This document shows, piece after piece, positions 21,135 to 47,218 of a stretch of DNA of 64,000 nt. Location of the stretch: NCBI RefSeq assembly GCF_009766105.1, contig NZ_LMUH01000005.1:396315-460314 (forward strand). Reading direction: 5' to 3'. Position numbers and translations under genes: made by a program. The notes below the pieces were generated by a model. That model ran no database searches. It had not been told where the DNA came from and worked only from the letters and a program-made list of their open reading frames with translations. Position 1 is the first letter of the stretch. Each line of letters opens with the position of its first letter. The DNA comes from Granulicella sp. S156 (lineage in GTDB: Bacteria > Acidobacteriota > Terriglobia > Terriglobales > Acidobacteriaceae).

Positions 21135-21246
21135 GTTGTACGTCTCGTTGTACGTCTCGTTGTCAGTTGTCAGTTGTCAGTGTCGGTTGCAGATTCATGG
21201 TTGCCAGTCCTCACTAACTGAGAACTGGCAACTGAGAACTGACAAC
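21135..21246. repeat. Heptad-word inverted array, GTTGTCA / AACTGAG type
   Basis: Two direct copies of a 12-base word (GTTGTACGTCTC, 21135-21158) lead into GTTGTCA repeated three times (21159-21179). After a 36-base spacer, the other arm (21216-21246) is a chain of 7-base words: AACTGAG, AACTGGC, AACTGAG, AACTGAC. The arms are complementary in several registers. It lies between two minus-strand genes. Confidence 0.8.
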
Positions 21247-21261
21247 CCACTCGGCACCGAA

Positions 21262-22242
21262 TCATACGCTTTGCAGCAACTCACCCAACCGATCAAGGCT
21301 CGAGTTCCATCCAGCAGTCATCCCCTTCAGGTGCTGTTCGGCCCCCGGCTTGGAGTTCATGACATGGACATCCAGCGTGACCTCTGTACCGCCTTCGACC
21401 TCGGCAAAGAACACCGAGTTCCAGTTCTCGAACATCGCATCGCCGTTTTTATCCAGCGGTGATGCCGTGAAGTGAAACCTGTATGGCGGATAGAACTCCA
21501 CGAACCGTCCCGTCATCGGATACACGGTCCCATCCGGTGCCTGCATGTGGATGAGGAGTGCGCCGCCGGCGCGCGCATCGACTTCACACACCGGGTTGGT
21601 GAAGCCCTTCGGCCCCCACCACTGTGCCAGCATCTCCGGCTTGGTCCACGCGTCGAAGACCAACTCGCGCGGCGCTGCGAAGAAGCGCCTCAGGTGCAGT
21701 TCGCTCGGCACTTCGTTGGGGTCGAGAACCCTCTCGGGCTGTACAGAGTTCATAAACTCCGCGAAGCAGTCGAACGCGCTGTTCCAGCCGCCGTTGTGTC
21801 CGTCGCGCTCGCCTTCGGTTGCGAACGGAGCCTGATGAAAGTGCATAACCGTCTTCTTTCCGCGCTCTTCAAAGCGCACGGTAATGATGTTTTCTTTGAA
21901 GGGACTTTCGCTGAGCCCCACGCTGGAGCGGTCTTCCCACGCAAACGTGTAGACCAATAGCTCTGGCGGCTTGATCTCGCGGGTTACGCCGCCCTGCCGC
22001 AGATAGGCCATCTGCTCACATCCGGGGATGCGGCCTTCCATGCAGAGCCGCCACTTGCCACCCGGTTCCGATGGCGCTACAAACTCTGTTGTCTGGAAGC
22101 CGCGCGGGCCCATCCAGTGCTTCGCCATCTCGGGATCGGTCCAGGCCTTCCACACCAACTCCCGTGGTGCGTCGAAGACGCGCGTAATGCGGAGCTCATA
22201 ACCAGTCGTAGAGGATACGGGCGATAGCGTTGCGGTGCTCAT
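21262..22242 (-). CDS. Tandem SRPBCC (AHSA1-like) protein
   Basis: The 326-residue protein is made of two AHSA1/START-like domains. The first (about 12-165) begins YELRITRVFDAPRELVWKAW with HWMGPRGF. The second (about 178-326) begins LHLRRFFAAPRELVFDAW with QWWGPKGF. These domains form a hydrophobic cavity and bind unknown small molecules; none has a proven reaction. Its start codon overlaps the stop of the preceding SRPBCC gene by four bases (ATGA), so the two are translationally coupled. A duplication and fusion of the neighbour's domain is a likely origin. Confidence 0.9.
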   Translation of the reverse strand: MSTATLSPVSSTTGYELRITRVFDAPRELVWKAWTDPEMAKHWMGPRGFQTTEFVAPSEPGGKWRLCMEGRIPGCEQMAYLRQGGVTREIKPPELLVYTFAWEDRSSVGLSESPFKENIITVRFEERGKKTVMHFHQAPFATEGERDGHNGGWNSAFDCFAEFMNSVQPERVLDPNEVPSELHLRRFFAAPRELVFDAWTKPEMLAQWWGPKGFTNPVCEVDARAGGALLIHMQAPDGTVYPMTGRFVEFYPPYRFHFTASPLDKNGDAMFENWNSVFFAEVEGGTEVTLDVHVMNSKPGAEQHLKGMTAGWNSSLDRLGELLQSV

Positions 22243-22742
22243 GCGGCAACTCCTTTTGTGGCGAGATGTTCGGCGAGCCGTTCCAGCGTCTGCTTGCCGC
22301 CTTCGACGGCGTGGTACTCGCGGATGATGGTGTCGCGCGCTTCGGTGCTGGGGAAGATCATGCGCAGGGTCAACAGTGTCTTGTCGCCCTCTGCCACTTC
22401 GAAGGTCACAATCTTCTGAGCGTTCACCTCGGTTGAGCCTTCGCCGCCATGACCGCCGTGCGTGGAGGAGAGGAGCTCAGGCCGCACCACCTCCAGGAAG
22501 ACGCTCTTATTCGGATAGTCGGTGCCGTCGGGCCCATGCATCACATGGTTCCATTCGCCGCCGGGGCGGACATCCATCTTTTCGATGGTGGTCGTGAAGC
22601 CCTCAGGTCCCCACCAGTGAACGATCTGCTCAGGGTCCGTCCACGCGTCGAAGACGAGTTCGCGGGGAGCGTCGATGACGCGTGTGATGACCATCTCGCG
22701 ACCGTCGGGTTGGACTACGGCGTTACTTTCTCTTGGGTTCAT
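22239..22742 (-). CDS. SRPBCC (AHSA1-like) domain protein
   Basis: A single-domain 167-residue protein of the AHSA1 family: MVITRVIDAPRELVFDAWTDPEQIVHWWGPEGF at about residues 17-49, then MDVRPGGEWNHVMHGPDG and a C-terminal helix with GGKQTLERLAEHL. Its start lies 20 bases inside the ArsR gene, behind a GGAG site, so it is co-transcribed and perhaps coupled. A regulator of this ArsR type followed by SRPBCC proteins is a common arrangement; the ligand is not known. Confidence 0.92.
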   Translation of the reverse strand: MNPRESNAVVQPDGREMVITRVIDAPRELVFDAWTDPEQIVHWWGPEGFTTTIEKMDVRPGGEWNHVMHGPDGTDYPNKSVFLEVVRPELLSSTHGGHGGEGSTEVNAQKIVTFEVAEGDKTLLTLRMIFPSTEARDTIIREYHAVEGGKQTLERLAEHLATKGVAA

Positions 22743-23082
22743 CGTCCTTCTCCTTGGCTTGCAGTTTTTTCAGGTAGTCGTCGAGGCGGTCGAAGCTCTG
22801 TTCCCAGAACCTTCGATACTCGTCAATCCAGACAGAGGCATCCTGGAGCGGCCCGGCCTGCAGCTTGCAGGGCCTCCACTGTGCCTCGCGCCCCCGTGCA
22901 ATGAGTCCAGCCCGCTCCAGCACCTTCAGGTGTTTGGAGATGGCCGGCATGCTCATCTCGAAGGGCGCGGCCAGCTCCGTGACCGAGGTTTCACCCAGGG
23001 CCAGCCGCCCCAGAATGGCCCGCCGCGTCGGATCGGCAAGAGCAGCAAACGTCGAGTCGAGATTGGAAGTATGCATATTCAT
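22723..23082 (-). CDS. ArsR family winged-helix regulator
   Basis: The 119-residue protein has the ArsR winged helix at about residues 8-85: DPTRRAILGRLALGETSVTEL, then MSMPAISKHLKVLERAGLI. There is no metal-binding CxC in the recognition helix, so it is of the non-metal group that usually accompanies SRPBCC genes. Two start codons are possible (23082 and 23076); the later one has better spacing from GGTG. Either way the start region lies at the edge of a perfect 36-bp palindrome, so the protein very probably represses its own operon. Confidence 0.93.
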   Translation of the reverse strand: MNMHTSNLDSTFAALADPTRRAILGRLALGETSVTELAAPFEMSMPAISKHLKVLERAGLIARGREAQWRPCKLQAGPLQDASVWIDEYRRFWEQSFDRLDDYLKKLQAKEKDDEPKRK

Positions 23083-23116
23083 TTCACCAATCGGTTATAT
23101 AACCGATTGGTGAAAT
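23081..23116. promoter_or_regulatory. Perfect 36-bp palindromic operator
   Basis: The 36 bases are exactly their own reverse complement; each half reads ATTTCACCAATCGGTTAT. It overlaps the -10 box, the expected transcription start and the ribosome-binding site of the ArsR gene. A repressor bound here would block both polymerase and, if transcribed, leave a hairpin over the ribosome site. Confidence 0.85.
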
Positions 23117-23142
23117 ATAGGCCCAGCCAAAACCCTTGTCAA
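23114..23142 (-). promoter_or_regulatory. Consensus sigma-70 type promoter of the ArsR-SRPBCC operon
   Basis: On the minus strand TTGACA (23137-23142) and TATATT (23114-23119) are exactly 17 bases apart. The -35 box lies inside a second inverted repeat, AAACCCT/AGGGTTT (23130-23150). The predicted start near 23107 falls inside the 36-bp palindrome. Confidence 0.85.
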
Positions 23143-23338
23143 CAGGGTTTCTAGATTTTTTTGGCCCATCCTTGCAAAGCACCACTTCGGCCACGAAATG
23201 CCACAAATCCTGATGGCCCAGACTCTAAGGCTGAGGGCACATTTGAGATTCACGCCCTTCCGTTACACTGGAACGACCTGTGAATGAGCGGCGCGCACGG
23301 TGCGCGCAAACACACGAGATTACTTTTTTGAGGACAGA

Positions 23339-25336
23339 ATGACCGATCAGCAGAAGCAAGATGCACTCGACCAGCTTTCCATCAACACGCTGCGCTTCCT
23401 CGCAGTCGATCAGGTTGAAAAGGCCAAGAGCGGCCACCCCGGAGCGCCATTGGGCTGCGCCCCCATCGCCTACCTGCTGTACCACAAGATCATGAAGTAC
23501 AACCCGTCCGAGCCGCACTGGTCGGACCGCGATCGCTTCATCTTGTCCAATGGCCATGCGTCCGCGCTGCTCTATGGCGTACTGCACCTGGCCGGCTACG
23601 ACCTGCCCCTGTCTCAGCTCGAGCAGTTCCGCCAGTGGGGTTCGCACACTCCGGGTCACCCGGAGGTCGGTGAGGCTCCAGGCGTTGAAGTGACCACCGG
23701 TCCGCTTGGCCAGGGCTTTGCCATGGCCGTGGGTGAAGCCATCGCCGAGAAGCATCTCGCCGCAATCTACAACCACGACAACCACACGCCGGTCGATCAC
23801 CACACCTACGTCCTCTGCGGCGACGGTGACTTGATGGAAGGCATTAGCCACGAATCCGCGTCTCTTGCCGGCACATTGAACTTAGGCAAGCTGATCGTGC
23901 TCTACGACGACAATCTGATCTCGCTCGACGGCCCCACCGATCTCAGCTACACCGAGGACGTTACCGAGCGCTTCCATGCCTACCACTGGCATGTGCAGAT
24001 GGTCGAAGACGGCAACGACCTCGTCGCGATTGAAAAAGCAATCCGCGCGGCCCAGGCTGAGACCACCAAGCCCTCGCTGATCCGCGTACGCACGGTCATT
24101 GGCTACGGCTCGCCCAAGGCCGGCACGAACAAGGTTCACGGCGAAGCGCTCGGAGCAGAGGCCACCAAGGCCACCAAGAAGAACCTCGGCTTCCCCGAGG
24201 ACCAGAGCTTCTACATCCCTGAAGAGGCCGGCAAGAACTGGCTGCAGGCTAAGGACAAGGGAGCGAAGGCTCAAGCCGAGTGGCAGGAGAACTTCGACGC
24301 CTACAAGAAGGCCTACCCCGAACTGGGCACGCAGTATGAGCGTACCTTTGCGGCGAAGCTGGCTGAGGGCTGGGAAAAGGCGATCCCCACCTTCCCAGTG
24401 GACAAGCCTGTGGCTACGCGCAACGCCGGCCAGGTAGTGTTGAATGCCGTCGCAAAGATCGTTCCGGAGCTGTTCGGCGGCGCGGCGGATCTTACGGCCT
24501 CCACCAAAACCATCTTCAAGGACTCACCTAGCTTCCACGTCGACCCCAAGGGCCGCAACGTGTTCTTCGGTGTGCGTGAGTTCGGCATGATGGCAGCTGT
24601 GAACGGCATCGCGGCACACGGCGGGCTCATTCCCTTCGGCTCGACGTTCTTCACCTTTAGCGATTACTGCCGTTCAGCGTTGCGCATGGGCGCGCTGATG
24701 CAAACCCACTCGCTCTACATCTTCACGCACGACTCCGTCGGCCTCGGCGAGGATGGTCCTACGCACCAGCCTGTCGAGCACCTCATGAGCCTGCGCGCCA
24801 TCCCACACCTTACCGACTTCCGGCCTGCGGACGCCAACGAGACCGCTGCCAGCTGGCAGCTTGCGTTAGAGCGCAAGTCGCCCAGCTTCATGGCTCTCTC
24901 TCGCCAGGACCTGCCGGTCATCGACGCCGTGAAGTACAAGGTATTCGAGGGCACGCGCAAAGGCGCCTACATCCTCGACGGCAGCGGCAAGGACATCGTC
25001 CTCGTCGCCACTGGCTCTGAGGTGGAGCTGATCGTCAAGGCTGCTGAAGAGTTGAAGGCCGCAGGCATTGGGGCAACAGTCGTCTCCATGCCGAGCTTCA
25101 AGCTCTTTGAGGAGCAGAGCGAGGAGTACAAGCTCTCCATCTTCCCGCACGGCGTGCCCAAGATCTCGGTCGAAGCCGGCGCCACGATGGGCTGGTGGAA
25201 GTACATCGGTCGTGAAGGCATCGCTATCGGGATCGACCGCTTCGGTGCCTCAGCTCCTGGGCCGATTGCGCTGGAGAAGCTCGGTATCTCGGTCGGCCAC
25301 ATCGTCGAGGCTGCCAAGAAGCTGGTGAAGAAGTAG
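23339..25336 (+). CDS. tkt: Transketolase
   Basis: The 665-residue thiamine-diphosphate enzyme moves two-carbon units between sugar phosphates in the non-oxidative pentose phosphate pathway. The N-terminal domain has KSGHPGAPLGCAP, the GHASALLY histidine and the TPP motif CGDGDLMEG..SHESASLAG. The pyrimidine domain has GVREFGMMAAVNGIAAHGG, and the C-terminal domain is complete with STFFTFSDYCR and HDSVGLGEDGPTHQPVEH. GAGGA nine bases before the ATG at 23339 fixes the start; the frame is open further upstream to 23300 without a site. First gene of the plus-strand pentose phosphate group; rpiA follows after a heptad-word hairpin array. Confidence 0.97.
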   Translation: MTDQQKQDALDQLSINTLRFLAVDQVEKAKSGHPGAPLGCAPIAYLLYHKIMKYNPSEPHWSDRDRFILSNGHASALLYGVLHLAGYDLPLSQLEQFRQWGSHTPGHPEVGEAPGVEVTTGPLGQGFAMAVGEAIAEKHLAAIYNHDNHTPVDHHTYVLCGDGDLMEGISHESASLAGTLNLGKLIVLYDDNLISLDGPTDLSYTEDVTERFHAYHWHVQMVEDGNDLVAIEKAIRAAQAETTKPSLIRVRTVIGYGSPKAGTNKVHGEALGAEATKATKKNLGFPEDQSFYIPEEAGKNWLQAKDKGAKAQAEWQENFDAYKKAYPELGTQYERTFAAKLAEGWEKAIPTFPVDKPVATRNAGQVVLNAVAKIVPELFGGAADLTASTKTIFKDSPSFHVDPKGRNVFFGVREFGMMAAVNGIAAHGGLIPFGSTFFTFSDYCRSALRMGALMQTHSLYIFTHDSVGLGEDGPTHQPVEHLMSLRAIPHLTDFRPADANETAASWQLALERKSPSFMALSRQDLPVIDAVKYKVFEGTRKGAYILDGSGKDIVLVATGSEVELIVKAAEELKAAGIGATVVSMPSFKLFEEQSEEYKLSIFPHGVPKISVEAGATMGWWKYIGREGIAIGIDRFGASAPGPIALEKLGISVGHIVEAAKKLVKK

Positions 25337-25341
25337 AAGAG

Positions 25342-25417
25342 CAGGGATCAGGAAACAGGGATTAGGGAAGACGCTGACGTCTTTCCTGTTTCCTGTTTCC
25401 TGTCTCCTGTTTCCTGA
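25342..25417. repeat. Heptad-word inverted array between tkt and rpiA
   Basis: The left arm reads in sevens GGATCAG, GAAACAG, GGATTAG, GGAAGAC. A short turn (CTGA) follows, then TCTTTCC, TGTTTCC, TGTTTCC, TGTCTCC, TGTTTCC. It begins five bases after the tkt stop and ends on the GAGGT ribosome-binding site of rpiA. Confidence 0.85.
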
Positions 25418-25423
25418 GGTTTC

Positions 25424-26104
25424 ATGACACAGGACGAAGCAAAAGCACTCGTGGGCAAGCGTGCCGTAGAGTTTGTGAAAGACGGTATGGCCGTTGGTCT
25501 TGGCACGGGCACAACAGCGACGCTGTTCATCAGGTCCCTTGGTGAGCGTGTGCAGCAGGGTTTGAAGATCCGTTGTGTGGCATCGAGCGATGCGAGCCAC
25601 AATCTGGCGGCGTCATTGGGCATGGATATCACAACGCTCGACAAGCTGCCCGAGCTCGATGTGTACATCGACGGCGCAGACGAAGTTGCACCAGGCTTGG
25701 CCCTGATCAAGGGCGGTGGCGGCGCGCTGCTGCGCGAGAAGATCGTCGCAAGCGCAGCGAAAAAATTCATCGTAGTTGCAGACCAGACAAAAGTAGTCAA
25801 GATGCTAGGCCGCTTTCCGCTGCCGGTGGAAGTCATCAAGATGGCTCTGCCACTTGTACTGCCGAAGCTGGCTGAGCTGGGGCTAAATCCCTCGCAGCGC
25901 CCTGCAAAGAACGGTAACGGCCCTTACCTTACGGACGAAGGAAACTTCATCCTGGACTGTGCCTGCGGCCAGATTCCGGATCCAGTGGCAACGGCGGCTG
26001 CGATTCGCAGCATCGTCGGTGTAGTGGAGCACGGTCTCTTTCTGCACATGGCCAGCCTCGCACTCATCGCAGGAGATGATGGCGTGACCGAGCTCCAGCC
26101 GTAA
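25424..26104 (+). CDS. rpiA: Ribose-5-phosphate isomerase A
   Basis: The 226-residue enzyme interconverts ribose 5-phosphate and ribulose 5-phosphate. Family motifs are all present: VGLGTGTTATLF (phosphate loop), VASSDAS, the catalytic aspartates and lysine in YIDGADEVAPGLALIKGGGGALLREKIVA, and a C-terminal GVVEHGLFLHMA. Length is typical. GAGGT lies directly upstream, at the foot of the heptad hairpin. Its substrate is made by the gnd gene product two genes downstream. Confidence 0.97.
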   Translation: MTQDEAKALVGKRAVEFVKDGMAVGLGTGTTATLFIRSLGERVQQGLKIRCVASSDASHNLAASLGMDITTLDKLPELDVYIDGADEVAPGLALIKGGGGALLREKIVASAAKKFIVVADQTKVVKMLGRFPLPVEVIKMALPLVLPKLAELGLNPSQRPAKNGNGPYLTDEGNFILDCACGQIPDPVATAAAIRSIVGVVEHGLFLHMASLALIAGDDGVTELQP

Positions 26105-26184
26105 TCGCAACCGAAAAGCCACATTTTATTGAGTTCGTAAAACAGACTTGCATCGCCACGACCTCCGCAAGCGTCTCTTCTTCC

Positions 26185-27051
26185 ATGAGTGATTCGACGA
26201 ACAACACGCAGGCTGGAAAAGTTTGGTTCATTACCGGTGCTTCTACCGGCTTCGGTCGCGAGATGGCCGAGCAACTGCTTGCGGACGGCGCGAAGGTCGT
26301 AGCCACGGCGCGCAAGCCCGATCAATTGAGTGATCTCGCGGCAAAGTATCCCGAGACCGCGCTGATACTGCCTTTGGACGTGACGAAGGATGACGCCGTA
26401 CAGTCGGCGGTTGAGAAGACGCTGGCGAAGTTCGGCCATGTAGATGTGCTGGTGAACAACGCGGGCTACGGAACGGCAGGCGCGGTGGAAGAGGTAACCG
26501 AAGCCGAATTTATGCCGATGTACGAGACCAACGTCTTCGGTCTCATTCGAGTGACGAGGGCCCTGTTGCCGCAGTTCCGCGAGCGCCGCAGCGGCCATAT
26601 CGTAAATCTTTCGTCAATTGGCGGCCTCGTTGGTCTGCCTGGCTGGGGCCTCTACAACTCATCGAAATTTGCCGTTGAAGGCCTCTCCGAGGCGCTCTTT
26701 GTCGAACTTGCCCCACTGGGCATCAAGGTTCTGATTGTTGAGCCAGGCCCGTTCCGGACGGACTTCTTAGGGCGTTCCGGTCAGGAGGCTGCTAAGCGCA
26801 TCGTGGACTACGACGCGACCTCCGGCAAGACCCGTGAGTACATGAAGAGTAACGACGGCAAGCAGGCGGGGGACCCGGTGCGCGCTGTGCAGGCGATTAT
26901 CGCTGCAGTCGCGTCGCCCAACACGCCGAAACATCTGCTGCTGGGTAAGTTAGCCCTCACTCGCTTCCGCCAGAAACTCGATGAATTTACCCAGGAAATA
27001 GCCATTTGGGAGCCGGTCACGCTCGGCGCTGACTTCCCCGAAGGTCAATGA
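26185..27051 (+). CDS. SDR family NAD(P)-dependent oxidoreductase
   Basis: A classical 288-residue SDR: cofactor loop TGASTGFGREMAE at about residues 17-30, DVTKDDA, NNAGYG at about 93-98, the catalytic serine in NLSSIGG and YxxxK in LYNSSKFAVEG. The PGPFRTDF loop follows. The family resembles bacterial oxidoreductases annotated as short-chain dehydrogenases with unassigned carbonyl substrates. It sits inside the pentose phosphate gene group, which might hint at a sugar or polyol substrate, but nothing in the sequence shows it. The ribosome-binding site is weak. Confidence 0.92.
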   Translation: MSDSTNNTQAGKVWFITGASTGFGREMAEQLLADGAKVVATARKPDQLSDLAAKYPETALILPLDVTKDDAVQSAVEKTLAKFGHVDVLVNNAGYGTAGAVEEVTEAEFMPMYETNVFGLIRVTRALLPQFRERRSGHIVNLSSIGGLVGLPGWGLYNSSKFAVEGLSEALFVELAPLGIKVLIVEPGPFRTDFLGRSGQEAAKRIVDYDATSGKTREYMKSNDGKQAGDPVRAVQAIIAAVASPNTPKHLLLGKLALTRFRQKLDEFTQEIAIWEPVTLGADFPEGQ

Positions 27052-27076
27052 GGGTAGCTAGGCATTCGGTTTGGTT

Positions 27077-27101
27077 GGAGGGGCGGGATTTCAGCCCCTC
27101 C
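27077..27101. other. Hairpin of the GGGGCGGG..CAGCCCC repeat type
   Basis: GGAGGGGC pairs perfectly with GCCCCTCC around a nine-base loop. A related word lies at about 13737-13755. A second stem (TTCCAGG / CCTGGAA) follows at about 27110-27141. It lies between the SDR gene and gnd. Confidence 0.5.
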
Positions 27102-27210
27102 ATGCCCTTCCAGGCAGGCCTGTCCTCGGAACCTGGAATGTGACCCATTTCTCATTGACAGCGGTTCGGATTACTCTCTAAGAGGCGTTTAAAACGCGTG
27201 AGGATGGTAC

Positions 27211-28116
27211 ATGGAACTTGGATTGATCGGACTCGGCAAGATGGGCGGCAACATGGCGGAACGCCTGCGCCTCGCCGGGCACAAGGTTGTCGGCTTTGAT
27301 TTTTCTGCCGACGCGGTAAAGAAGTTGAACGATGCCGGCTCCGTCGGCGTGAACACTCTCGAAGATCTCGTCAAAAATCTCCAGGCGCCGCGTGCGATCT
27401 GGATCATGGTCCCGGCGGGCGATCCTGTCGACGAGACCATCGCAAAGCTGAAGCCGCTGATGCAGAAGGGCGACATCTTTATCGATGGTGGTAACTCCAA
27501 CTACAAGGATACGCAGAGACGGCATGATGTCCTGAAGGCAGAGGGCTTCGAATTCGTCGACGTAGGAACGTCGGGCGGCATCTGGGGTATCACTGAGGGC
27601 TATAGCATGATGATCGGCGGCGACGTGGATGTCGTCGAGCGGCTACGCCCGATCTTCGAGACGCTGGCTCCAGGCGCCGACAAGGGCTGGGGCCGTGTTG
27701 GCCCATCGGGCGCCGGGCACTTCGTGAAGATGGTCCACAACGGCATCGAGTACGGCGTGATGCAGGCGTATGCCGAGGGCTTCTCGATTATGAAGGCGAA
27801 GAAGCCGCTCGACCTCGACCTTACACAGATCTCCGAGATCTGGCGTTATGGGTCGGTGGTACGTTCGTGGCTGCTGGATCTGACAGCAGATGCGCTCAAG
27901 AAAAACCCCACGCTGGAAGGTCTCGAGGCCTATGTGCCGGACTCCGGCGAGGGCCGCTGGACGGTCTTCGAAGCCATCGATCTCAATGTGTCGGCTCCGG
28001 TGATTACGGAGTCGTTGATTCGCCGCCTGCGCTCGCGCGAAGAGAACAACTTCACCGACCGCATGTTGTCGGTGATGCGCAATGAGTTTGGCGGACACGC
28101 CGTGAAGAAGAGCTAG
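27211..28116 (+). CDS. gnd: 6-phosphogluconate dehydrogenase (decarboxylating), short form
   Basis: The 301-residue enzyme oxidises 6-phosphogluconate to ribulose 5-phosphate and CO2. The Rossmann start GLIGLGKMGGNMAERL, FIDGGNSNY, VGTSGGIWGITEGYSMMIGG and the catalytic lysine in GPSGAGHFVKMVHNGIEYG are all clear. It is of the short class (about 300 residues instead of about 470) that lacks the long C-terminal dimer domain and in several bacteria prefers NAD. AGGA lies 10 bases before the ATG. It is followed by a heptad-word array and zwf. Confidence 0.96.
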   Translation: MELGLIGLGKMGGNMAERLRLAGHKVVGFDFSADAVKKLNDAGSVGVNTLEDLVKNLQAPRAIWIMVPAGDPVDETIAKLKPLMQKGDIFIDGGNSNYKDTQRRHDVLKAEGFEFVDVGTSGGIWGITEGYSMMIGGDVDVVERLRPIFETLAPGADKGWGRVGPSGAGHFVKMVHNGIEYGVMQAYAEGFSIMKAKKPLDLDLTQISEIWRYGSVVRSWLLDLTADALKKNPTLEGLEAYVPDSGEGRWTVFEAIDLNVSAPVITESLIRRLRSREENNFTDRMLSVMRNEFGGHAVKKS

Positions 28117-28186
28117 AGGATAGAGGGTAGAGGATGGAGGATAGAACGTTCTCTCTATCCTCTACCCTCTGCACTCTACGCTCTCA
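28114..28186. repeat. Heptad-word inverted array, GAGGATA type, between gnd and zwf
   Basis: The left arm reads GAGGATA, GAGGGTA, GAGGATG, GAGGATA; the right arm reads CTCTATC, CTCTACC, CTCTGCA, CTCTACG, CTCTCAA. The centre is the palindrome AACGTT. The array begins within the gnd stop codon and ends a few bases before the GAGGAG of zwf. The words differ from the GGAAACA family next door, but the 7-base period and layout are the same. Confidence 0.85.
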
Positions 28187-28201
28187 AACCTGAGGAGCAT
28201 T

Positions 28202-29749: not shown

Positions 29750-29750
29750 A

Positions 29751-29786
29751 AGCAGGAAACAGGGAATAGCAAACAGAAAACAGCTG
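29751..29786. repeat. Half heptad-word array after zwf
   Basis: GGAAACA, GGGAATA, GCAAACA, GAAAACA follow each other in exact 7-base steps. There is no long pyrimidine arm; only CAGCTGTAGGGTTAGCTG can fold. It seems to be a broken or incomplete member of the family. Confidence 0.7.
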
Positions 29787-29929
29787 TAGGGTTAGCTGCT
29801 CCCTTTATTGTTATTTCGAACCTGACTGAGGAATCTGTTGTCCACTGGGCCGTTTGCCGAGAGGGCGACAGGTTTCTCGCTCAGTGTGAAATTAGGCCAA
29901 GATAGAAGCAACGGAGAACAGAGAACACT

Positions 29930-30745: not shown

Positions 30746-30754
30746 CAAAGATAG

Positions 30755-30825
30755 AAAAACAGGAAGTATCAAACAGGAAGAAGTAGCAAACAGCATACTG
30801 TTTCCTATTGCTGTTTCCTGTCTCT
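30755..30825. repeat. Heptad-word inverted array between pgl and glk
   Basis: Left words GGAAGTA, TCAAACA, GGAAGAA, then GCAAACAG; a tight turn AAACAG-CATA-CTGTTT (30788-30803); right words TGTTTCC, TATTGC, TGTTTCC, TGTCTC. The 7-base step slips by two or three bases in places. It ends 15 bases before the glk start codon. Confidence 0.8.
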
Positions 30826-30840
30826 AAAAACGGGGCGTAC

Positions 30841-37341: not shown

Positions 37342-37362
37342 CCGTAACCTCAACCGACAGCA

Positions 37363-37396
37363 AAAAAAGATGCCGCCCACCAGGGCGGCATCTTTT
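37363..37396. terminator. Bidirectional terminator between converging genes
   Basis: AAAAGATGCCGCCC and GGGCGGCATCTTTT pair over 14 bases around ACCA, with A- and T-tracts on both sides. It closes the receptor gene (plus) and the 96-residue gene (minus). Confidence 0.93.
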
Positions 37397-37406
37397 CTGG
37401 TCGAAA

Positions 37407-37697: not shown

Positions 37698-37716
37698 AGT
37701 ACCCCCTTTCGCCTTC

Positions 37717-40443: not shown

Positions 40444-40519
40444 GAGCAGCGACGACTGAGTTCTGCCCAGTGTGCCATATGTCGTCTACTCGAAACAGCT
40501 GATCTATTGTGAAATCGTT

Positions 40520-41815
40520 CTATCTGCGCCTTAGAACCACAACAGTCTCTAGATGGAAGGTCTGAGGGAAGAGGTCTACCAGGTGCAGTGCGGTGATGAG
40601 ATAGTCGCGCTGCAGCACGACAAGATCGCGAGCCAGCGTCGTTGGATCGCACGAGACATAGGTGATTTCTCGTGCGCCGATTTTTAGCAGCAACTCGCAA
40701 GCCTCCAGCCCAGCGCCTGCACGAGGAGGGTCGAGCACGATTAACTCAGGCCGTTCGCGCTGTACGACCGCGACACGCAAAAAATCCAGCGTCGTTGCCT
40801 GAACGGCGCGATGTTGTGTCCCCGGCGTGGCAAGCGCGTTCTTAAGGTCGCTGGCAGCAGAAGGGTTCGCTTCGACAGCGGTGATCTGTTGGAAGCCTCG
40901 CGCGAGTACCCGCGAAAAAAGTCCGACGCCCGCGAAGAGGTCCCATGCGATTGTTCCTTGCTGGCCCGTGCAGACGAGGGCGACGAGTTCATCTACCAGA
41001 AATTGGTTGACCTGGAAGAAACCGCCGCGGCTTATCCAATAGCCTTCGCCGGCGACGCGATAGGCAAGACCATTGGATCCCCAAGACGCTGTGCGAATCA
41101 GTTTGACGCTTGCTCGTCGCGCGTCAGGAGGCGCGACGCCAGCACCGGCAAGCTGTGGCAACCTCTTTTGCAAAGCCTCGCACAGGCGCGTAAAGCCATT
41201 CTTTTTTGTTGGCATCGCACCCGAGCCCAGCAAAGTCATCAGCAACCGAGAACGATCCTCATTGCAGAAGAACTCAACTTCGTCGGCGCTTGAGACCCAG
41301 GCACGCGCTTCCACATCACTCTCTGCGAGTTCCAATAATGCGGTCGCCGCTTGCCAGAGCAGCGGTGCTGCGATGGGGCACTCCGTGATGGGGAGAAATT
41401 CATTCGTTTTCCGTATGCTGTAGCCAACGCGAAGCTTCCCTTCAACCATGCCGAAACGAAAGCGCACACGGTTGCGATAGCTCCAAGGCTCTCCTGTATG
41501 CGTTGCGATCTCAGGCAGATCACGGACGCTTGCACGCTGCATCGTCTCTACCAGAATTGAGTGCTTTATCTCGAGTTGTGTTGCATACTCCGCATGCTGA
41601 TACTGACAGCCTCCACACCGGCCAAAGTGGCCACATTTCGCGGCGACGCGTGTCAGCGCAGGTTCAAGGACATACAGCAATTCGTCCGTAGAGGCATCGA
41701 TTTCGACAAGCTCCCCAGGCAGTGCGAAAGGCACAAGTGCCACCGCACCATTTTCTTTTCGGGTGAGCCCCGCGCCACCATATACGGCACGCTCGATGCG
41801 AACAGTCTCGGCCAT
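40520..41815 (-). CDS. rlmD: 23S rRNA (uracil-5-)-methyltransferase, RlmD/TrmA type
   Basis: The 431-residue enzyme methylates uracil C5 in RNA with S-adenosylmethionine. The N-terminal TRAM-like part leads into the iron-sulfur motif CGHFGRCGGCQYQH at about residues 61-75. The SAM-binding domain has WDLFAGVGLFSRVLA, and the catalytic region reads LDPPRAGAGLEACELLL and YVSCDPTTLARDL with the nucleophilic cysteine. RlmD (U1939 of 23S rRNA) is the likeliest target but RlmCD or TrmA-like targets cannot be excluded. Its ATG at 41815 shares one base with the stop of the upstream gene (TGATG), so translation is coupled. Confidence 0.93.
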   Translation of the reverse strand: MAETVRIERAVYGGAGLTRKENGAVALVPFALPGELVEIDASTDELLYVLEPALTRVAAKCGHFGRCGGCQYQHAEYATQLEIKHSILVETMQRASVRDLPEIATHTGEPWSYRNRVRFRFGMVEGKLRVGYSIRKTNEFLPITECPIAAPLLWQAATALLELAESDVEARAWVSSADEVEFFCNEDRSRLLMTLLGSGAMPTKKNGFTRLCEALQKRLPQLAGAGVAPPDARRASVKLIRTASWGSNGLAYRVAGEGYWISRGGFFQVNQFLVDELVALVCTGQQGTIAWDLFAGVGLFSRVLARGFQQITAVEANPSAASDLKNALATPGTQHRAVQATTLDFLRVAVVQRERPELIVLDPPRAGAGLEACELLLKIGAREITYVSCDPTTLARDLVVLQRDYLITALHLVDLFPQTFHLETVVVLRRR

Positions 41816-42531
41816 CACTCATGCCCCATGTAGAAGAGACTGAGGCGCGGAAGGCTGCGGGCTTCGAGCAAGCGCTTCTGCAGAAACTGCGTTTGGATCT
41901 GCCGAATCTGCACCGCACCGATCTTGGCACGATACGGTGCGAGCTCGCGGTCGGCTTGTTCGCGCAGGCTGACAATTTCAGCTTCTGGTGCAGCGTTCAT
42001 CAGAGCCGCGAAGAGCTTCTCTTCGAGCACGGTCAATGTGCGGTCAAGCTCGTCCAGCGGCATCGCAGCAGCCGCGCGCATTGCCTCCGCCAACTCCCGC
42101 AAGCGGCGCGCGGTTTCGAGGAGTACTGGCGATGCGGAGGCTTGTGTGTGAACAGCGGCTTCGATTGCCTTTGCGTTTTCTTCAAGAAAACGTGCAACGC
42201 GCTCCGCTTCAAAGCCACTCTCGACGGTCTCATGCTGTGTCGTTTTCGCAGAGCCTGTCGCTGCTTCGGCCATGTCTTCTACCGCCTGCATCACAGCCTG
42301 CGAGCACCAGGCTAGGCCGTTGACCTTGCGCGTACGGCCTTTGGCGCGCAGCAGCTTTGCATCGTGTTTATCGAAGGCCTCGTCGATGCCGCGCAACACC
42401 GCTTCGAGAGGAATGCCAGCCTCACGCCATGTTTCGATCAACGCCCAGTCCAGCGTCGAGAGCAGCAGCAGTGAGCCACGCCGACGGCTGAAGCGTTCTT
42501 CGATCTCCGAGAAGTAGTGAAAGTAGTTCAT
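41815..42531 (-). CDS. Conserved-looking hypothetical protein between coaX and rlmD
   Basis: The 238-residue product is not recognised. The start MNYFHYFSEIEERFSRRRGS is followed by a compact part with DWALIETWREAGIPLEAVLRGIDEAF and KVNGLAWCSQAV up to about residue 95. The rest is a long charged helical region (about 100-225) with heptad-like leucine spacing, ending KRLLEARSLPRLSLFYMGHE. The N-terminal part looks like a small DNA- or RNA-binding helical domain, but this is only an impression. It is translationally coupled to rlmD and starts immediately after a heptad-word array, so it belongs to the same operon. Confidence 0.85.
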   Translation of the reverse strand: MNYFHYFSEIEERFSRRRGSLLLLSTLDWALIETWREAGIPLEAVLRGIDEAFDKHDAKLLRAKGRTRKVNGLAWCSQAVMQAVEDMAEAATGSAKTTQHETVESGFEAERVARFLEENAKAIEAAVHTQASASPVLLETARRLRELAEAMRAAAAMPLDELDRTLTVLEEKLFAALMNAAPEAEIVSLREQADRELAPYRAKIGAVQIRQIQTQFLQKRLLEARSLPRLSLFYMGHE

Positions 42532-42533
42532 AA

Positions 42534-42620
42534 GCAGCAAGCAGGAAACAGCAAACAGGAAACAGCATATAGGTATGACCAGCTTTCGCTGTTTGCTGTT
42601 AACTGTTTGCTGTTTCCTGC
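42534..42620. repeat. Heptad-word inverted array between coaX and the hypothetical gene
   Basis: Left words: GCAAGCA, GGAAACA, GCAAACA, GGAAACA, GCATATA. Right words: TTTCGCT, GTTTGCT, GTTAACT, GTTTGCT, GTTTCCT. It fills nearly the whole gap between the coaX stop (42622) and the next start codon (42531), and includes the ribosome-binding region of that gene. Confidence 0.87.
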
Positions 42621-42621
42621 A

Positions 42622-43425
42622 CTATCGCCTTCTTTGGCGCTCCTGATTCCGTTCCCAGATCAGCCGCAGTCCGGTCAGCGTAAGCATCTCGTCGACAGCG
42701 CCGATGTGTTTGCAGTCTACGGCGATCAGCTTGGCGAGGCCCCCGGTAGCAATCGTCTTTGTCTCCGGTCCGAGCTCCGCAATGAATCGCTCGAGGATGC
42801 CGTCGACGAGGCCAATATAGCCGTAATAGAGTCCGATTTGGATGTTGTCGGTCGTGTTGGTGCCGATAATCTTCGCCGGTTTCTTGATCTCCACGCGCGT
42901 CAAACGCGCCGCACGTGAAAACAGCGCATCCGCGGAGATGCCAAGCCCCGGAGCGATAGCCCCACCTACGAACTCGCCCCTCTTCGAAACAACGTCGAAG
43001 GTGGTCGCCGTGCCCATATCGACGACGATCGTTGGGCCTCCGAGCAGGTCGTAGGCCGCGACGCAGTTCGCCACGCGGTCTGCGCCGGCCTCGCTGGGAT
43101 TGTCGGTCAACACGGGCAAGCCAGTCTTCACGCCGGGTTCGATGAAGAGTGGCCTGATGTGGAAGTACATCTCACACACGTGCCGCAAAGTGGAATCGAG
43201 CGGTGGGACTACAGAAGAGATGACTATGCCGGTGACGACGTCCGTCTTCAATCCGCGCATGCCGAACAGGGTCTGTAGCAGCACGCCAAGCTCGTCAGGC
43301 GTCTGCTGTTTGTAGGGCGTAGTGATGCGCCAGTCCGCGATCACCGCAGCGGGTACGCCCTCCGCCGAGGGGCGAAAGAGCCCCACGACTGTGTTTGAGT
43401 TGCCTACATCGAGTGCCAGTAGCAT
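42622..43425 (-). CDS. coaX: Type III pantothenate kinase
   Basis: The 267-residue enzyme phosphorylates pantothenate in coenzyme A synthesis and is of the ASKHA-fold type III class, which is not inhibited by CoA. Clear motifs: MLLALDVGNSNTVVGLF at the N-terminus, GADRVANCVAAYD near the middle with the catalytic aspartate, and VDMGTATTFDVVS. GGGAAGG precedes the ATG. It follows birA by 27 bases in one operon; the pairing of birA with coaX is common in many phyla. Confidence 0.97.
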   Translation of the reverse strand: MLLALDVGNSNTVVGLFRPSAEGVPAAVIADWRITTPYKQQTPDELGVLLQTLFGMRGLKTDVVTGIVISSVVPPLDSTLRHVCEMYFHIRPLFIEPGVKTGLPVLTDNPSEAGADRVANCVAAYDLLGGPTIVVDMGTATTFDVVSKRGEFVGGAIAPGLGISADALFSRAARLTRVEIKKPAKIIGTNTTDNIQIGLYYGYIGLVDGILERFIAELGPETKTIATGGLAKLIAVDCKHIGAVDEMLTLTGLRLIWERNQERQRRR

Positions 43426-43452
43426 GATCGCCTTCCCGCCTCGGTTGAATTA

Positions 43453-44277
43453 CTATTCCATCTCACGAACACCACCCGAGAGCACTGTCCGCAGCACACC
43501 GTCGTCGCTTGCAACGAGCAGAAATCCGCGCTCGTTCAACCCCGCCGTTACGCCAGTATATCCACCCTGCTCGGGCACGCTCACACGTTTTCCGCTTACC
43601 CAGCTGGTGGCCTCTGTAAATCTCATAAGCAGATCTTTTTCGCGCGGGGCAGAGGAGTCTTCAAGCAGCGTAAGCTCGCGGTCAAGGGCTCGCAGCAGGG
43701 CGATCAACAGTTTGCTGCGGCTCAACTGTTTGCCAGTCACGAGCCGCAGTGAGGTCGCCAGAGGAGCAAGTTCTTCTGAAAAGAGCGGATGATTGATATT
43801 CACGCCTACGCCAATCACGGCATAGCGCAAGACCGTGTTCTGCTCGAGTTCCTGGTTGCGTCCAAGGGCAGTTTCGACAAGGATGCCGCCGCACTTTTTG
43901 CCGCTGAACAGCAGATCGTTTGGCCAGCGAATGTCGGAGATCAGCCCGGTGCACTCTCGAATCGCATGTTGGACAGCGAGGCCCGTCGCCAGGGAAATCC
44001 AGAGCGCATCGTTCAACAGCAGAGCCGGTTTTGCGAGGATGCTCACGTACAGGCCGTCTCCGGGAGAGGAGTGCCAGGAGTGGCCTCCGCGTCCACGGCC
44101 CGCAGTCTGTTCGTCGGCGACAAAGACAGTGCCTTCAGGCGCACCAGCGGCCGCGGCTTCGAGCAGCATGGCATTGGTCGAGTCCACCGAAGCGAAGTGC
44201 TGTAGCCCCCGGGCGAAGCGCGTGCCTACCAAAGCCGAACGCACGATGGCGATGTTGAGATCATTCGGAGCGACCAT
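43453..44277 (-). CDS. birA: Biotin--[acetyl-CoA-carboxylase] ligase
   Basis: The 274-residue enzyme activates biotin as biotinyl-AMP and attaches it to the carrier protein of acetyl-CoA carboxylase. It shows SVDSTNAMLLE, the adenylate loop ADEQTAGRGRGGHSW, DIRWPNDLLFSGKKCGGILVE and VIGVGVNINHP. A C-terminal SH3-like domain is present (SGKRVSVPEQGG). There is no N-terminal DNA-binding domain, so it is a monofunctional ligase and not a repressor. One base separates the valS stop from its ATG. Confidence 0.96.
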   Translation of the reverse strand: MVAPNDLNIAIVRSALVGTRFARGLQHFASVDSTNAMLLEAAAAGAPEGTVFVADEQTAGRGRGGHSWHSSPGDGLYVSILAKPALLLNDALWISLATGLAVQHAIRECTGLISDIRWPNDLLFSGKKCGGILVETALGRNQELEQNTVLRYAVIGVGVNINHPLFSEELAPLATSLRLVTGKQLSRSKLLIALLRALDRELTLLEDSSAPREKDLLMRFTEATSWVSGKRVSVPEQGGYTGVTAGLNERGFLLVASDDGVLRTVLSGGVREME

Positions 44278-44278
44278 G

Positions 44279-47062
44279 TTAATCCTTCGGCAGTGCTGTT
44301 AGTGCTGCTTCAGTCTTCTCCTTCAGTGCGCGAGTTTCGGCCGCTTGCTTCTTCAACCCTTCGACGATGTGTGCAGGCGCTTTGGCCACAAAGCCTTCGT
44401 TGTTCAACTGGCGTTCCGCGGCTTGCAGTCCTTTGTCGTACTTCGCGAGGTCTTTTTCGAGGCGCTCACGCTCAGCGGCGACATCGATCTGACGCTCGTA
44501 GACGACGGAGACATCGAAGATTGCCGTTGCGCGGGCGTTGTTCCCCTTGGGGGCCTCCTGGACCAGCTCAACGGAGCTCACACGCGCGAGCCTTGCAAGC
44601 ATATCGGCGTTGGCGTCGGCCAGCGCAGCGATGCGATTGCTCGCGTGAACGTGAATCGGAGTGGCTTCTTTTTCAGGAACGCCGAGCTCTTTGCGCAGAC
44701 CGCGTACGGTAACGATGAGCTCCTGCAGGATGTTCATCGCTTCCACGCTGGCCGCGTCGTTGGCGAAGTCAGCTGCCTGCGGGAAGCGTGTGAGCGCGAT
44801 GGACTTCGCGGGCGATTCGCTGCCAACGGAGGCATAGAGCGCATGCCAGAGCTCTTCGGTGAGGAACGGCATAAAGGGCGAGAGCAGACGCAGCGCGGCT
44901 TCGAACACGCTGACCAGCGCGCCCAGGGTGATTCCTGTCACATCGCTATGCGGCTTGAAGAGGCCTTTTTCGTCGGGCATGAAATCAAACCGCAGCTTGA
45001 CGAGTTCGAGATACCAATCGCAGAACTCGCCCCAGAAGAACTGGTAGACGGCGTTTGCGGCCTCGTCGAAACGATAGTCCGCAAGTGCGCGTTCGACCTC
45101 CGCGCACACCGTGCTCAGGCGCGCGAAGATCCAACGTGTCTCGAGCGGTGTAGACTCCGGCAGCTCCAGCGATACGGAGTCGTGCGATCCGAGCGAGACC
45201 TTGTATCCAGCCTCACGACCGCGTTCAATCTGCATCTGCAGGAAGCGAGCGGCGTTCCATATCTTGTTCGCGAATGCACGATAGCCTTCGGTACGAGCCT
45301 CGCTAAAGGCGATGTCGGTACCCGGCGAGGCCTGCGAGGCGAGCGTGAAGCGTACCGCATCCGTTCCATACTTGGTAACAATCTCAATGGGATCAATGAC
45401 GTTGCCCTTGGTCTTGGACATCTTCTGCCGGTCAGCATCGCGCACCAGCGCATGGATATAGACCTCGCGGAAGGGTACGGCGTCAGCGAGTGTGCGCGGC
45501 GAGCCATCGGGCAGGGGGATATCGAGCATGAAGTGACAGCCCAGCATGATCATGCGGGCGACCCAGAAGAAGAGGATGTCGAAACCCGTAACAAGAAGCT
45601 GCGTCGGATAGAAGGATGCGAGATCCGGAGTGAGTTTGTCACTGCCATCCCAGCCGAAGACAGTGAATGGCAGCAAACCCGACGAGAACCATGTGTCGAG
45701 CACATCGGTCTCCTGCACCAGTTTCGCGCTGCCGCACTTTGCGCAGGCGGTTGGTGTGTCGCGTGAGACATTGATCTCGCCGCAATCGCCGCAGTGCCAC
45801 GCCGGGATGCGATGCCCCCACCACAGTTGCCGCGAGATGCACCAGTCATGGATGTTCTTCATCCACTCGTCGTAGGTCTTGCGATAGTTCTCGGGCGTGA
45901 ACTTGATATAGCCTTTGTCGACGGCCTCAATGGCCTTGTCGGCCAGTGGCTGAATCTTGAGGAACCACTGCATCGATAGGCGCGGCTCGATCACGGCGCC
46001 AGTGCGCTGCGAAACCGGAAGCGTGAGTGTGTGGTCCTTGATGTCCACCAGCGCGCCGTTGGCGCGAAGGTCTTCGACGATGCGCTTGCGGGCCTCGAAA
46101 CGGTCGAGCCCGTGATACGGCGAGCCTTCGAGCTTGATGTGAGCCTGCTCGTCCATAATGCTGGGCGAGGGCAGATTGTGCCGTTGGCCGATGGCGAAGT
46201 CGTTTGGATCATGGGCCGGTGTGACCTTTACGGCGCCGGTGCCGAACTCGGGGTTGGCCCAGTCGTCGGCTATGACGGGAATCTCTCTGCCGACCAGAGG
46301 CAGGATCAGATTCTTACCGAGGAATACCGTGTAGCGCTCATCGTTCGGGTTCACGGCCACGGCAACGTCGCCAAGCATCGTCTCGGGGCGTGTGGTCGCG
46401 ATGACGATGGAGCCTGTGCCATCTGCCAGCTCATAGCGGATGTGAAAGAGCGAGCCCGCACGCTCTTCGGATTCAACTTCGAGATCGCTCACTGCAGTCT
46501 GAATCTGCGGGTCCCAGTTGACGATGTACGCCCCACGGTAGATGAGCCCCTGCTCCCACAGGCGCACGAAGCTCTCCTTCACGGCGTGGCTTAGCCGCTC
46601 GTCCATTGTGAAGTACTCGCGCGACCAGTCGACGCTGGCGCCAAGCCGTCGCATCTGATCGGTGATGGCGCCACCATACTGTTCTTTCCACTGCCACACA
46701 CGCTCAGTGAAGGCCTCGCGCCCAAGCTGCTGGCGTGTCGTCGTGCCTTCGGCGGCGAGTTGCCGCTCGACCATCATCTGGGTCGCGATGCCCGCATGAT
46801 CGGTGCCCGGGACCCATACGGCCGTGTCGCCGCGCATGCGGTGCCAGCGCGTGAGAATGTCCATCTCCGTTTGGTTGAGCATGTGCCCCATGTGCAGCCG
46901 GCCGGTAACGTTGGGCGGCGGCAGCAGTTGCACGAATGTCTTGTCCGCGGCGGTTTTACCTGTAGGTGTGGTGACATCGAACAGCCGCTCTTCCACCCAG
47001 AACTTCGCCCACTTCTCTTCAATCGACGACGGATCGTATGCCTTTGGTAGTTCTTGATTCAT
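44279..47062 (-). CDS. valS: Valyl-tRNA synthetase
   Basis: The 927-residue class I synthetase charges tRNA-Val. The HIGH motif is HMGH in PPPNVTGRLHMGHML at about residues 50-62. The editing domain spans about 190-345, the zinc-like region has two CxxC pairs (CGDCGEINV and CAKCG) at about 410-440, KMSKTKGNVIDP is the KMSKS loop, and the C-terminal coiled coil (ERERLEKDLAKYDKGLQ to ALKEKTEAALTALP) is complete. No T-box leader is seen. A 156-base gap filled by a heptad array separates it from bamD. Confidence 0.97.
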   Translation of the reverse strand: MNQELPKAYDPSSIEEKWAKFWVEERLFDVTTPTGKTAADKTFVQLLPPPNVTGRLHMGHMLNQTEMDILTRWHRMRGDTAVWVPGTDHAGIATQMMVERQLAAEGTTTRQQLGREAFTERVWQWKEQYGGAITDQMRRLGASVDWSREYFTMDERLSHAVKESFVRLWEQGLIYRGAYIVNWDPQIQTAVSDLEVESEERAGSLFHIRYELADGTGSIVIATTRPETMLGDVAVAVNPNDERYTVFLGKNLILPLVGREIPVIADDWANPEFGTGAVKVTPAHDPNDFAIGQRHNLPSPSIMDEQAHIKLEGSPYHGLDRFEARKRIVEDLRANGALVDIKDHTLTLPVSQRTGAVIEPRLSMQWFLKIQPLADKAIEAVDKGYIKFTPENYRKTYDEWMKNIHDWCISRQLWWGHRIPAWHCGDCGEINVSRDTPTACAKCGSAKLVQETDVLDTWFSSGLLPFTVFGWDGSDKLTPDLASFYPTQLLVTGFDILFFWVARMIMLGCHFMLDIPLPDGSPRTLADAVPFREVYIHALVRDADRQKMSKTKGNVIDPIEIVTKYGTDAVRFTLASQASPGTDIAFSEARTEGYRAFANKIWNAARFLQMQIERGREAGYKVSLGSHDSVSLELPESTPLETRWIFARLSTVCAEVERALADYRFDEAANAVYQFFWGEFCDWYLELVKLRFDFMPDEKGLFKPHSDVTGITLGALVSVFEAALRLLSPFMPFLTEELWHALYASVGSESPAKSIALTRFPQAADFANDAASVEAMNILQELIVTVRGLRKELGVPEKEATPIHVHASNRIAALADANADMLARLARVSSVELVQEAPKGNNARATAIFDVSVVYERQIDVAAERERLEKDLAKYDKGLQAAERQLNNEGFVAKAPAHIVEGLKKQAAETRALKEKTEAALTALPKD

Positions 47063-47081
47063 AAGCTTTAAGCGTAGCAGG

Positions 47082-47218
47082 GGAAGAAGCAGGAAACAGC
47101 AAACAGGAAGTAGGAAACAGGAAGAGCAAAGCAGTTTAGTGATTTATGTGGCCACAACGGCAAACAGGAGAAGCCGAAGCCCCTCCTGTTTGCTGTTTCC
47201 TGTTTGCTGTTTCCTGCC
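47082..47218. repeat. Long heptad-word inverted array between bamD and valS
   Basis: The left arm (47085-47132) reads GGAAACA, GCAAACA, GGAAGTA, GGAAACA, GGAAGAG; the right arm (47183-47217) reads CTCCTGT, TTGCTGT, TTCCTGT, TTGCTGT, TTCCTGC. A second nested hairpin pairs GCAAACAGGAG (47160-47170) with CTCCTGTTTGC (47183-47193) perfectly, competing with the long arm for the same bases. It ends one base before the bamD stop. Confidence 0.87.

Follow-up and report, generated by a model that had tools for sequence, protein, structure and literature searches.

The STRR sequences of cyanobacteria are direct tandem arrays of heptamers. Heptamer repeats are reported to be commoner than expected in several bacteria unrelated to one another; why the unit has seven bases has so far only been guessed at, the suggestion put forward being a polymerase footprint (PMC4679880, PMC4692102). 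In Xanthomonas, (GGGANTN)n or GGGAATC heptamers are described in 186 (Xcc) and 183 (Xac) arrays, 89% and 93% of them intergenic, with convergent pairs in 70 and 75 cases, respectively; they lie close behind the upstream ORF, are rarer between divergent ORFs, and have mostly the same gene neighbours in the two species, with the sequence varying (Rehm 2015, PMC4692102). For the P6b region of the Nostoc trnL intron, a stem-loop is described in which complementary 7-base repeats form the two arms. There, a word class has given way entirely to another, repeatedly and at the same place, and a single 7-base repeat is gained or lost on one side of the stem (Kaasalainen 2015, PMC4476775). The TAACTGA repeats of Beggiatoaceae, cyanobacteria and Bacteroidetes are intergenic heptamers distributed genome-wide, the BOGUAY genome being credited with 169 direct-repeat sets and one indirect repeat (MacGregor 2015, PMC4679880). 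Satellites of the type (GATAGRA)n are reported from Chloroflexus aurantiacus (Subirana 2019, PMC6749651), and three heptanucleotides are mentioned for Calothrix (PMC4692102). Inverted repeats in general, as surveyed in 118,019 genomes, show a bacterial peak 50-80 bp behind stop codons (PMC13155455). For Acidobacteria, a search of the open-access literature, which included a Solibacter genome paper (PMC3174227), found no earlier report of such arrays.

Results

Period-7 arrays in the window and in the S156 genome

The stretch of DNA analysed (the window) comprises 64,000 nucleotides of Granulicella sp. S156, positions 396315-460314 of contig C20, in a genome of 6.44 Mb in 26 contigs. Among named relatives, Granulicella mallensis X5P3 (label L125) stands closest by its glucose-6-phosphate dehydrogenase (96% protein identity). 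An initial annotation had named seven intergenic places of the window as holding inverted heptamer arrays, and heptamer arrays are present at all seven. Their arms are listed below in window coordinates, with no strand assigned, together with the z score of the fold of the gap.

21159..21181, left arm of the 21.1 kb array, (CAGTTGT)n class
21216..21246, right arm of the 21.1 kb array, CTGAGAA/CTGACAA; gap fold z -3.5
25342..25373, left arm in the tkt-rpiA gap, CAGGGAT and CAGGAAA, beginning 5 nt past the tkt stop codon; gap fold z -7.2
25378..25416, right arm in the tkt-rpiA gap, (TTTCCTG)n
28114..28145, left arm in the gnd-zwf gap, (TAGAGGA)n, its first TAG being the gnd stop codon; gap fold z -6.6
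28153..28184, right arm in the gnd-zwf gap
29753..29783, single left arm in the zwf-pgl gap, CAGGAAA, CAGGGAA, TAGCAAA and CAGAAAA, beginning 3 nt past the zwf stop
30760..30793, degenerate left arm in the pgl-glk gap; gap fold z -3.2
30798..30821, right arm in the pgl-glk gap
42541..42572, left arm in the 42.5 kb gap, CAGGAAA/CAGCAAA
42589..42620, right arm in the 42.5 kb gap; gap fold z -8.3
47089..47127, left arm in the 47.1 kb gap, CAGGAAA/CAGCAAA
47179..47217, right arm in the 47.1 kb gap; gap fold z -9.4

Four arrays (25.3, 28.1, 29.75 and 30.75 kb) lie within a codirectional pentose-phosphate run consisting of tkt, rpiA, a short-chain dehydrogenase gene, gnd, zwf, pgl and glk. On the - strand, the right arms at 42.5 and 47.1 kb place their first CAG 2 nt past the stop codons of the type III pantothenate kinase gene and of a YfiO-domain gene, respectively. 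The inverted, two-armed layout claimed for all seven places holds for six; the zwf-pgl gap (29.75 kb) was searched for a right arm matching 29753..29783 and none was found. Folding, which had been suggested as a check, gave the same division, as RNA of the six folds better than nearly all shuffles (z -3.2 to -9.4) and that of the 29.75 kb gap folds no better than shuffles (z 0.03). A search of the 64-kb window against Rfam returned no family at gathering score. Adjoining the 21.1 kb heptamer array, a 12-base sequence is duplicated in tandem (GTTGTACGTCTC, 2.4 copies) at positions 21135-21163.

When the window was scanned strictly at periods 2-24, 3 clusters appeared at period 7, 4 at period 14 and a single one, at 21.1 kb, at period 12; the remaining periods had none, and neither did any period in five Markov simulations. 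In 2.05 Mb of the S156 genome, of which intergenic DNA makes up 16.6%, we found 72 period-7 stretches, 65 of them mainly intergenic. Periods 4, 5, 8, 10, 11 and 13 gave only 1-3 stretches each, and periods 6, 9, 12, 15 and 18 gave 33, 12, 32, 31 and 41 hits, with 16, 2, 11, 5 and 10 of these, respectively, being intergenic. A scan of 864 kb of S156 detected 28 segments at period 7 and none at periods 4, 5, 8-11 and 13, the counts at other periods being 8 each for 6 and 12, 21 for 14, 6 for 18 and 11 for 21. Genome-wide, AGGAAACAGGAAACAG with at most 2 mismatches occurs at 270 places in S156, versus 5 for its reversed control.

With gene calls made by a simple caller of our own rather than taken from an annotation, the 2.05 Mb contain 52 array-bearing gaps, of which 28 lie among 815 codirectional gaps, 12 among 227 convergent ones and 12 among 269 divergent ones. 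The placement in codirectional gaps that had been noticed in the window is thus accurate for its seven places and no general rule, because 12 convergent and 12 divergent gaps stand among the 52. An inverted repeat better than shuffles was found in 33 of the 52 gaps by a first criterion, 6 of these 33 repeats not overlapping the array; by a second criterion 29 gaps have one that overlaps the array and 23 do not. Overall, the proposed intergenic family of inverted, word-swapping heptamer arrays is borne out by the 65 intergenic stretches among 72 and by relatives that carry arrays with other words; equal frequency inside genes and ordinary leaders lacking period 7 were both looked at as grounds against it, and neither undoes it. 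The features reported in the following two sections, namely an AG anchor, a fixed convergent orientation and anchoring to stop codons, go beyond what the initial annotation had described.

A dinucleotide frame with a fixed orientation

To describe the units themselves, we used 42 distinct paired arrays found by period and pairing, 7 of which came from a word-pattern search and from which one duplicate of 43 had been dropped. AG is the sole dinucleotide in phase nearly everywhere in these arrays, with a mean in-phase fraction of 0.92 in left arms, followed by CA at 0.57. In-phase AG exceeds CT in the left arm of 40 of the 42, and of 35 out of 35 once the seven word-pattern arrays are removed, both exceptions (one tie and one loss) being among those seven. 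In the intergenic DNA of S156 and of two relatives, G209 and G166, period-7 runs of at least 5 number 48 for AG and 56 for CT, whereas AG or CT runs of that length at six other periods average 0.8 each. Of the pairs of neighbouring AG and CT runs at most 200 bp apart in these three genomes, 45 are convergent, 1 is divergent and 8 are tandem; the fixed letters are AG, every 7 bases on the inward-pointing strand.

The two arms of the 45 convergent pairs, which had been picked without regard to their non-AG letters, agree at 3.78 of 5 free positions, compared with 1.83 of 5 when re-paired, and the observed agreement was reached in none of 5000 random re-pairings. On the strength of the AG phase, the convergent orientation and the arm match, a paired element can be written as two inward-pointing (NAGNNNN)n arms that have most of their five free letters in common. 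The arms differ in unit number and order; by inspection they are non-palindromic heptad runs, and the symmetry is between the two arms. The first unit is often GCAG: of 117 arms, 35 have GC before the first AG, compared with 12 of 519 inner units.

CAG was tried in place of AG as the anchor and rejected, its runs forming 23 convergent, 2 divergent and 17 tandem pairs in S156 and 9 convergent, 3 divergent and 7 tandem pairs in the relatives. The AG rule is wider than a CAG rule and also covers TAG, AAG and GAG words. Rho sites, CsrA, TRAP-like proteins and primase (CTG template) are what we take to be candidate readings of the AG/CT spacing.

Placement relative to genes

AG runs of at least 5 units that lie behind a gene on the same strand begin no more than 12 nt from its stop codon in 45 of 52 cases, compared with 145 of 2420 random intergenic points. 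For runs whose outer neighbour is a start codon, 8 of 52 lie within 12 nt of it (median 26 nt), the corresponding figures for random intergenic points being 171 of 3154 and a median of 170; runs that face a start are thus also nearer to it than random points are. In codirectional gaps, 24 of 28 arrays lie closer to the stop, at a median of 2 nt from it, the median distance to the next start being 31.5 nt. The arrays begin at about +3 behind the stop codon, and a TAG stop sometimes doubles as the first array unit, as for gnd in the window. TGA stops are rare at array starts, being found at 6 of 62 runs versus 564 of 1924 called genes in S156, G209 and G166 together, a tally in which some gaps are counted twice.

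The same gaps with changed words in relatives

Orthologous gaps were compared between S156 contig C20, G209 contig C5 (376 kb) and 80 kb of G166; the last two genomes are 92.9% identical over 66 kb of aligned DNA. Scored as occupied in both genomes, in the first only, in the second only or in neither, the gaps numbered 5/1/1/27 for G166-G209 (p 1e-4), 5/0/2/34 for S156-G209 (p 3e-5), 5/3/0/38 for G209-S156 (p 4e-5) and 4/2/1/9 for S156-G166 (p 0.04), tables that rest on a small part of the arrays because many S156 array gaps had no orthologous gap found in G209 or G166. Arrays occupy the same orthologous gaps far more often than expected by chance.

The word at an occupied gap is often another one. 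In the tkt-rpiA gap, S156 has CAGGAAA and CAGGGAT, G209 has CAGGGCT and CAGGGTC, and G166 has TAGGGAT; a second co-occupied gap holds TAGAGGA in G166 versus AAGTGAC in G209, and a third, shared by these two genomes, TAGGGAT versus AGGGCTT. The word thus differs in 3 of the 5 gaps co-occupied in G166 and G209, with flanks 93-98% identical, and is the same in the other 2. The 42.5 kb gap has CAGGAAA in S156 and TAGGGAT in both relatives, the 47.1 kb gap has CAGGAAA in S156 and TAGAGGA in both relatives, and the gnd-zwf gap has TAGAGGA in both S156 and G209. The right arm in the 47.1 kb gap differs by 21 bases (3 units) between G166 and G209.

Divergence is not clearly faster in array gaps than in other gaps, their median identities being 0.58 and 0.565, respectively, for S156-G209, and 0.75 and 0.87 for G166-G209, where only five array gaps enter the comparison. 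Since array gaps are not clearly more diverged than others, turnover of gaps is general, and what is unusual is therefore the persistence of structure and not a fast change of letters.

Two gaps of the pentose-phosphate run were followed more widely. Among the gnd-zwf gaps of relatives, 9 of 62 have a period-7 score of at least 11, with various words; the best of five other periods, computed for all but the shortest gaps, reaches this in 3 of 62. The gnd-zwf gaps of L126 and L128 carry arrays whose unit resembles GTTAGCGGA/GTTAGC, with period 9 in L126, and other unit lengths may occur at sites where relatives have heptamers. The pgl-glk gap measures at most 3 bp in 45 of 51 relatives, which leaves no room for an array, and the S156 array there was therefore probably gained. 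The zwf-pgl gap of Granulicella mallensis X5P3 (814 bp) contains an apparent inserted open reading frame that is absent from the S156 window.

Distribution of the words among genomes

With at most 1 mismatch, the CAGGAAA word (CAGGAAACAGGAAACAG) was counted at 167 places in S156, 17 in G166 and 12 in G209, and at no more than 4 places in each of the other 25 of 28 genomes. The TAGGGAT word (TAGGGATTAGGGATTAG, at most 1 mismatch) occurs in 14 of the 28, with 3 places in S156, 41 in G208, 37 in G166, 14 in G209 and 52 in G222; a reversed control is invalid for this count, TAGGGAT reading the same backwards. Judged from these counts, the dominant word is species-specific. Three near-perfect CAGGAAA arrays of about 8-12 units in S156, apparently one-armed, lie at C19:959524-959604, C4:188073-188145 and C4:264167-264225, and these long arrays are candidates for recent expansion.

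The pattern YWGNNRA, four times in a row, was found in 118 of 200 genomes of the wider family. As a grammar it is not general, because the reversed control exceeds the forward count in some genomes (4 forward versus 92 reversed in G052). In G052, G153 and G031 the reversed pattern ARNNGWY is far commoner than the forward one, and there may be other heptamer grammars in the family. A second type of inverted repeat or motif, TGTCATTCCCG...GGGAATGACA, is present in intergenic DNA at S156 C20:146140-146362 and in L089.

Discussion

The reading that we prefer, and whose chances we put at close to even, is that the arrays are intercistronic or 3' stem-loops remodelled by slippage, by copying from arm to arm and by replacement between arrays. 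In a two-armed array the arms would form one long hairpin, enclosing an interior that in most cases is unrelated to those at other places. Slippage in 7-base steps would add and remove heptad units; it most simply accounts for the 21 bases by which the right arm at 47.1 kb differs between G166 and G209. One arm would be rewritten from the other by template switching inside the quasi-palindrome, and the match between arms is what such switching would give. Finally, short-homology copying from array to array would exchange the resident word of a site for another, with the register supplied by the AG-every-7 frame that the arrays have in common, and in this way a single word could come to occupy many sites within a lineage. 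Because the dominant word is species-specific, something acting between loci appears to be needed; between-locus copying through the AG frame is our preferred explanation, offered as a guess. The order of units does not clearly favour such copying, and the interiors of different arrays are for the most part unrelated.

As to function, we infer that the array would be transcribed behind the stop codon and form a long stem-loop, serving as an intercistronic processing signal or a barrier to decay. Such a role fits the placement at stop codons, but it is not the whole story because there are one-armed arrays, dispensable sites and divergent arrays (in 12 of the 52 array gaps), which have no 3' end on which to act. 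The stem-loop is probably tolerated behind stops and at times of use, although it can be dispensed with and in most cases is no intrinsic terminator. Arrays as copies of one master arm were considered and not adopted, as a shared unit order between arrays is near the null expectation (2 pairs versus 0.67 in shuffles, with a null maximum of 9).

The arrays could also be a pure mutational residue, in which slippage and quasi-palindrome correction act in unprotected DNA with no function and no copying between loci. We regard this as unlikely, if well short of negligible. The closeness to stop codons could then be merely the edge of what selection protects, arrays abutting the stop because selection on the coding sequence halts them there. 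Unit gain or loss is seen (the 47.1 kb gap in G166 and G209), gap turnover is general, divergent gaps hold arrays too, and among long simple repeats, heptamers are reported to be the commonest class in most genomes rich in such repeats (Mrazek 2007, via PMC4679880). Taken alone, however, such a process leaves unexplained the AG anchor across unrelated words, the 45:1 orientation, the repeated occupation of the same gaps and the species-specific dominant word. It seems to us improbable that the arrays are mobile elements of MITE or REP type, bounded by terminal inverted repeats and mobilised by a RAYT/Y1-type transposase, with the words representing different families. Such an element would account for the partly defined outer start GCAG and for an S156 array in a pgl-glk gap that is closed in most relatives, and Y1_Tnp genes are present in 26 of 28 genomes of the genus. 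But the interiors are mostly not common to arrays, the arms vary in the number and order of units, and Y1_Tnp numbers, compared by eye, do not evidently track array numbers: across the 28 genomes there are 0-11 matches per genome with no evident link to arrays, S156 having 5 against 167 CAGGAAA places, G209 11 against 12, and G222 1 against 52 TAGGGAT places. Two particular element types do not match. A MITE should have a shared interior, and this reading was rejected, since only one pair is related among the 10 S156 interiors of at least 20 nt, the related part being a terminator-like hairpin; in REP/BIME elements each unit should be a palindrome of 20-40 nt, and the arms here are runs of non-palindromic heptads.

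That the arrays are ordinary transcription terminators which happen to be repetitive is, in our estimation, highly improbable, and as the general case it was rejected given the divergent gaps and the 2 of 7 window arrays flagged by a terminator scan. Anchoring to stop codons and hairpin folds would both be expected of terminators, 3 of 19 paired S156 interiors contain a GC-rich hairpin (followed in one by TCGTTTTT), and the peak of perfect bacterial inverted repeats 50-80 bp behind stops has been ascribed to termination (PMC13155455). The consensus scan flags a short inner hairpin at 25363-25388 in the 25.3 kb array, in the gene sense, and another at 29775-29804 on the other strand, yet both have broken T tails, where an intrinsic terminator should have a GC-rich stem running straight into a T run, the other five window arrays give none, and the sites hardly exceed those in shuffles (14 vs 8.7; 4 vs 4.4). 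Moreover, four of the seven window arrays stand inside the tkt-rpiA-gnd-zwf-pgl-glk run, arrays begin at about +3 and not at +50, a terminator requires neither a 7-base period nor an AG frame, and 12 of the 52 array gaps are divergent. A last account, which we judge distinctly improbable although slightly less so than terminators, would make the arrays scars of a dedicated process that adds or copies heptads where intergenic breaks or stalled forks leave 3' ends pointing inward. The 3' ends would be extended in 7-base steps, re-priming on AG/CT, and then joined, giving head-to-head arrays like fused telomeres; the word would be set by the template in use, and would hence be species-specific and overwrite older words at fragile palindromes; and AG every 7 bases would be the footprint of an enzyme and not a matter of hairpin function.

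The Granulicella genomes offer a natural experiment, with many arrays and words, one dinucleotide frame and one orientation. Orthologous sites keep the structure while the letters are rewritten, and so offer an approach to the spread and rewriting of short repeats in bacteria. Culturable Granulicella allow direct tests of the origin of the 7-base period, of the way in which a word spreads through a genome and of any importance of the hairpins for mRNA.

Comparison with known heptamer systems

Cyanobacterial STRR sequences and the S156-type arrays both consist of short tandem heptamers, a likeness drawn on that feature alone. With the Chloroflexus (GATAGRA)n family, compared by its satellite description alone, the S156-type arrays have in common that they form a bacterial heptamer family (PMC6749651). 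The TAACTGA repeats resemble them in being intergenic, genome-wide heptamers, but are, as described, direct, mostly just upstream of start codons, and rarely accompanied by repeats of related words (PMC4679880). Relative to the inverted repeats of the large survey, with their peak 50-80 bp behind stops, S156-type arrays begin at about +3 (PMC13155455). Nostoc P6b has heptads in complementary arms and replacement of words at one place, as do the S156-type arrays; it is, however, described as one locus in a group I intron with two word classes, whereas S156-type arrays occupy many intergenic places with many words, those of the window lying between protein genes and not inside a trnL group I intron.

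The inverted, word-varying heptamer layout had initially been thought to be an undescribed class, but it is already published for the convergent (GGGANTN)n pairs of Xanthomonas (PMC4692102). Xanthomonas and S156 arrays have in common a 7-base unit with free letters, a mainly intergenic position, convergent pairs and a place behind the upstream ORF. In the published account, the Xanthomonas words carry G-tracts able to form G-quadruplexes, the word contains no AG, and there is one word type. A G-tract of at least 3 per unit is lacking in many S156-type words: GGG is absent from the commonest words of S156 (CAGGAAA, CAGTTCT and CAGCAAA) and present in TAGGGAT and CAGGGAT, which are common in G166 and G209. 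In the S156-type arrays, unlike those described for Xanthomonas, AG is fixed, many words coexist, and the word changes at an orthologous gap. The S156-type arrays are thus of the same kind as the Xanthomonas repeats, and are set apart from them by the AG frame, the coexisting words and the turnover of words at orthologous places.
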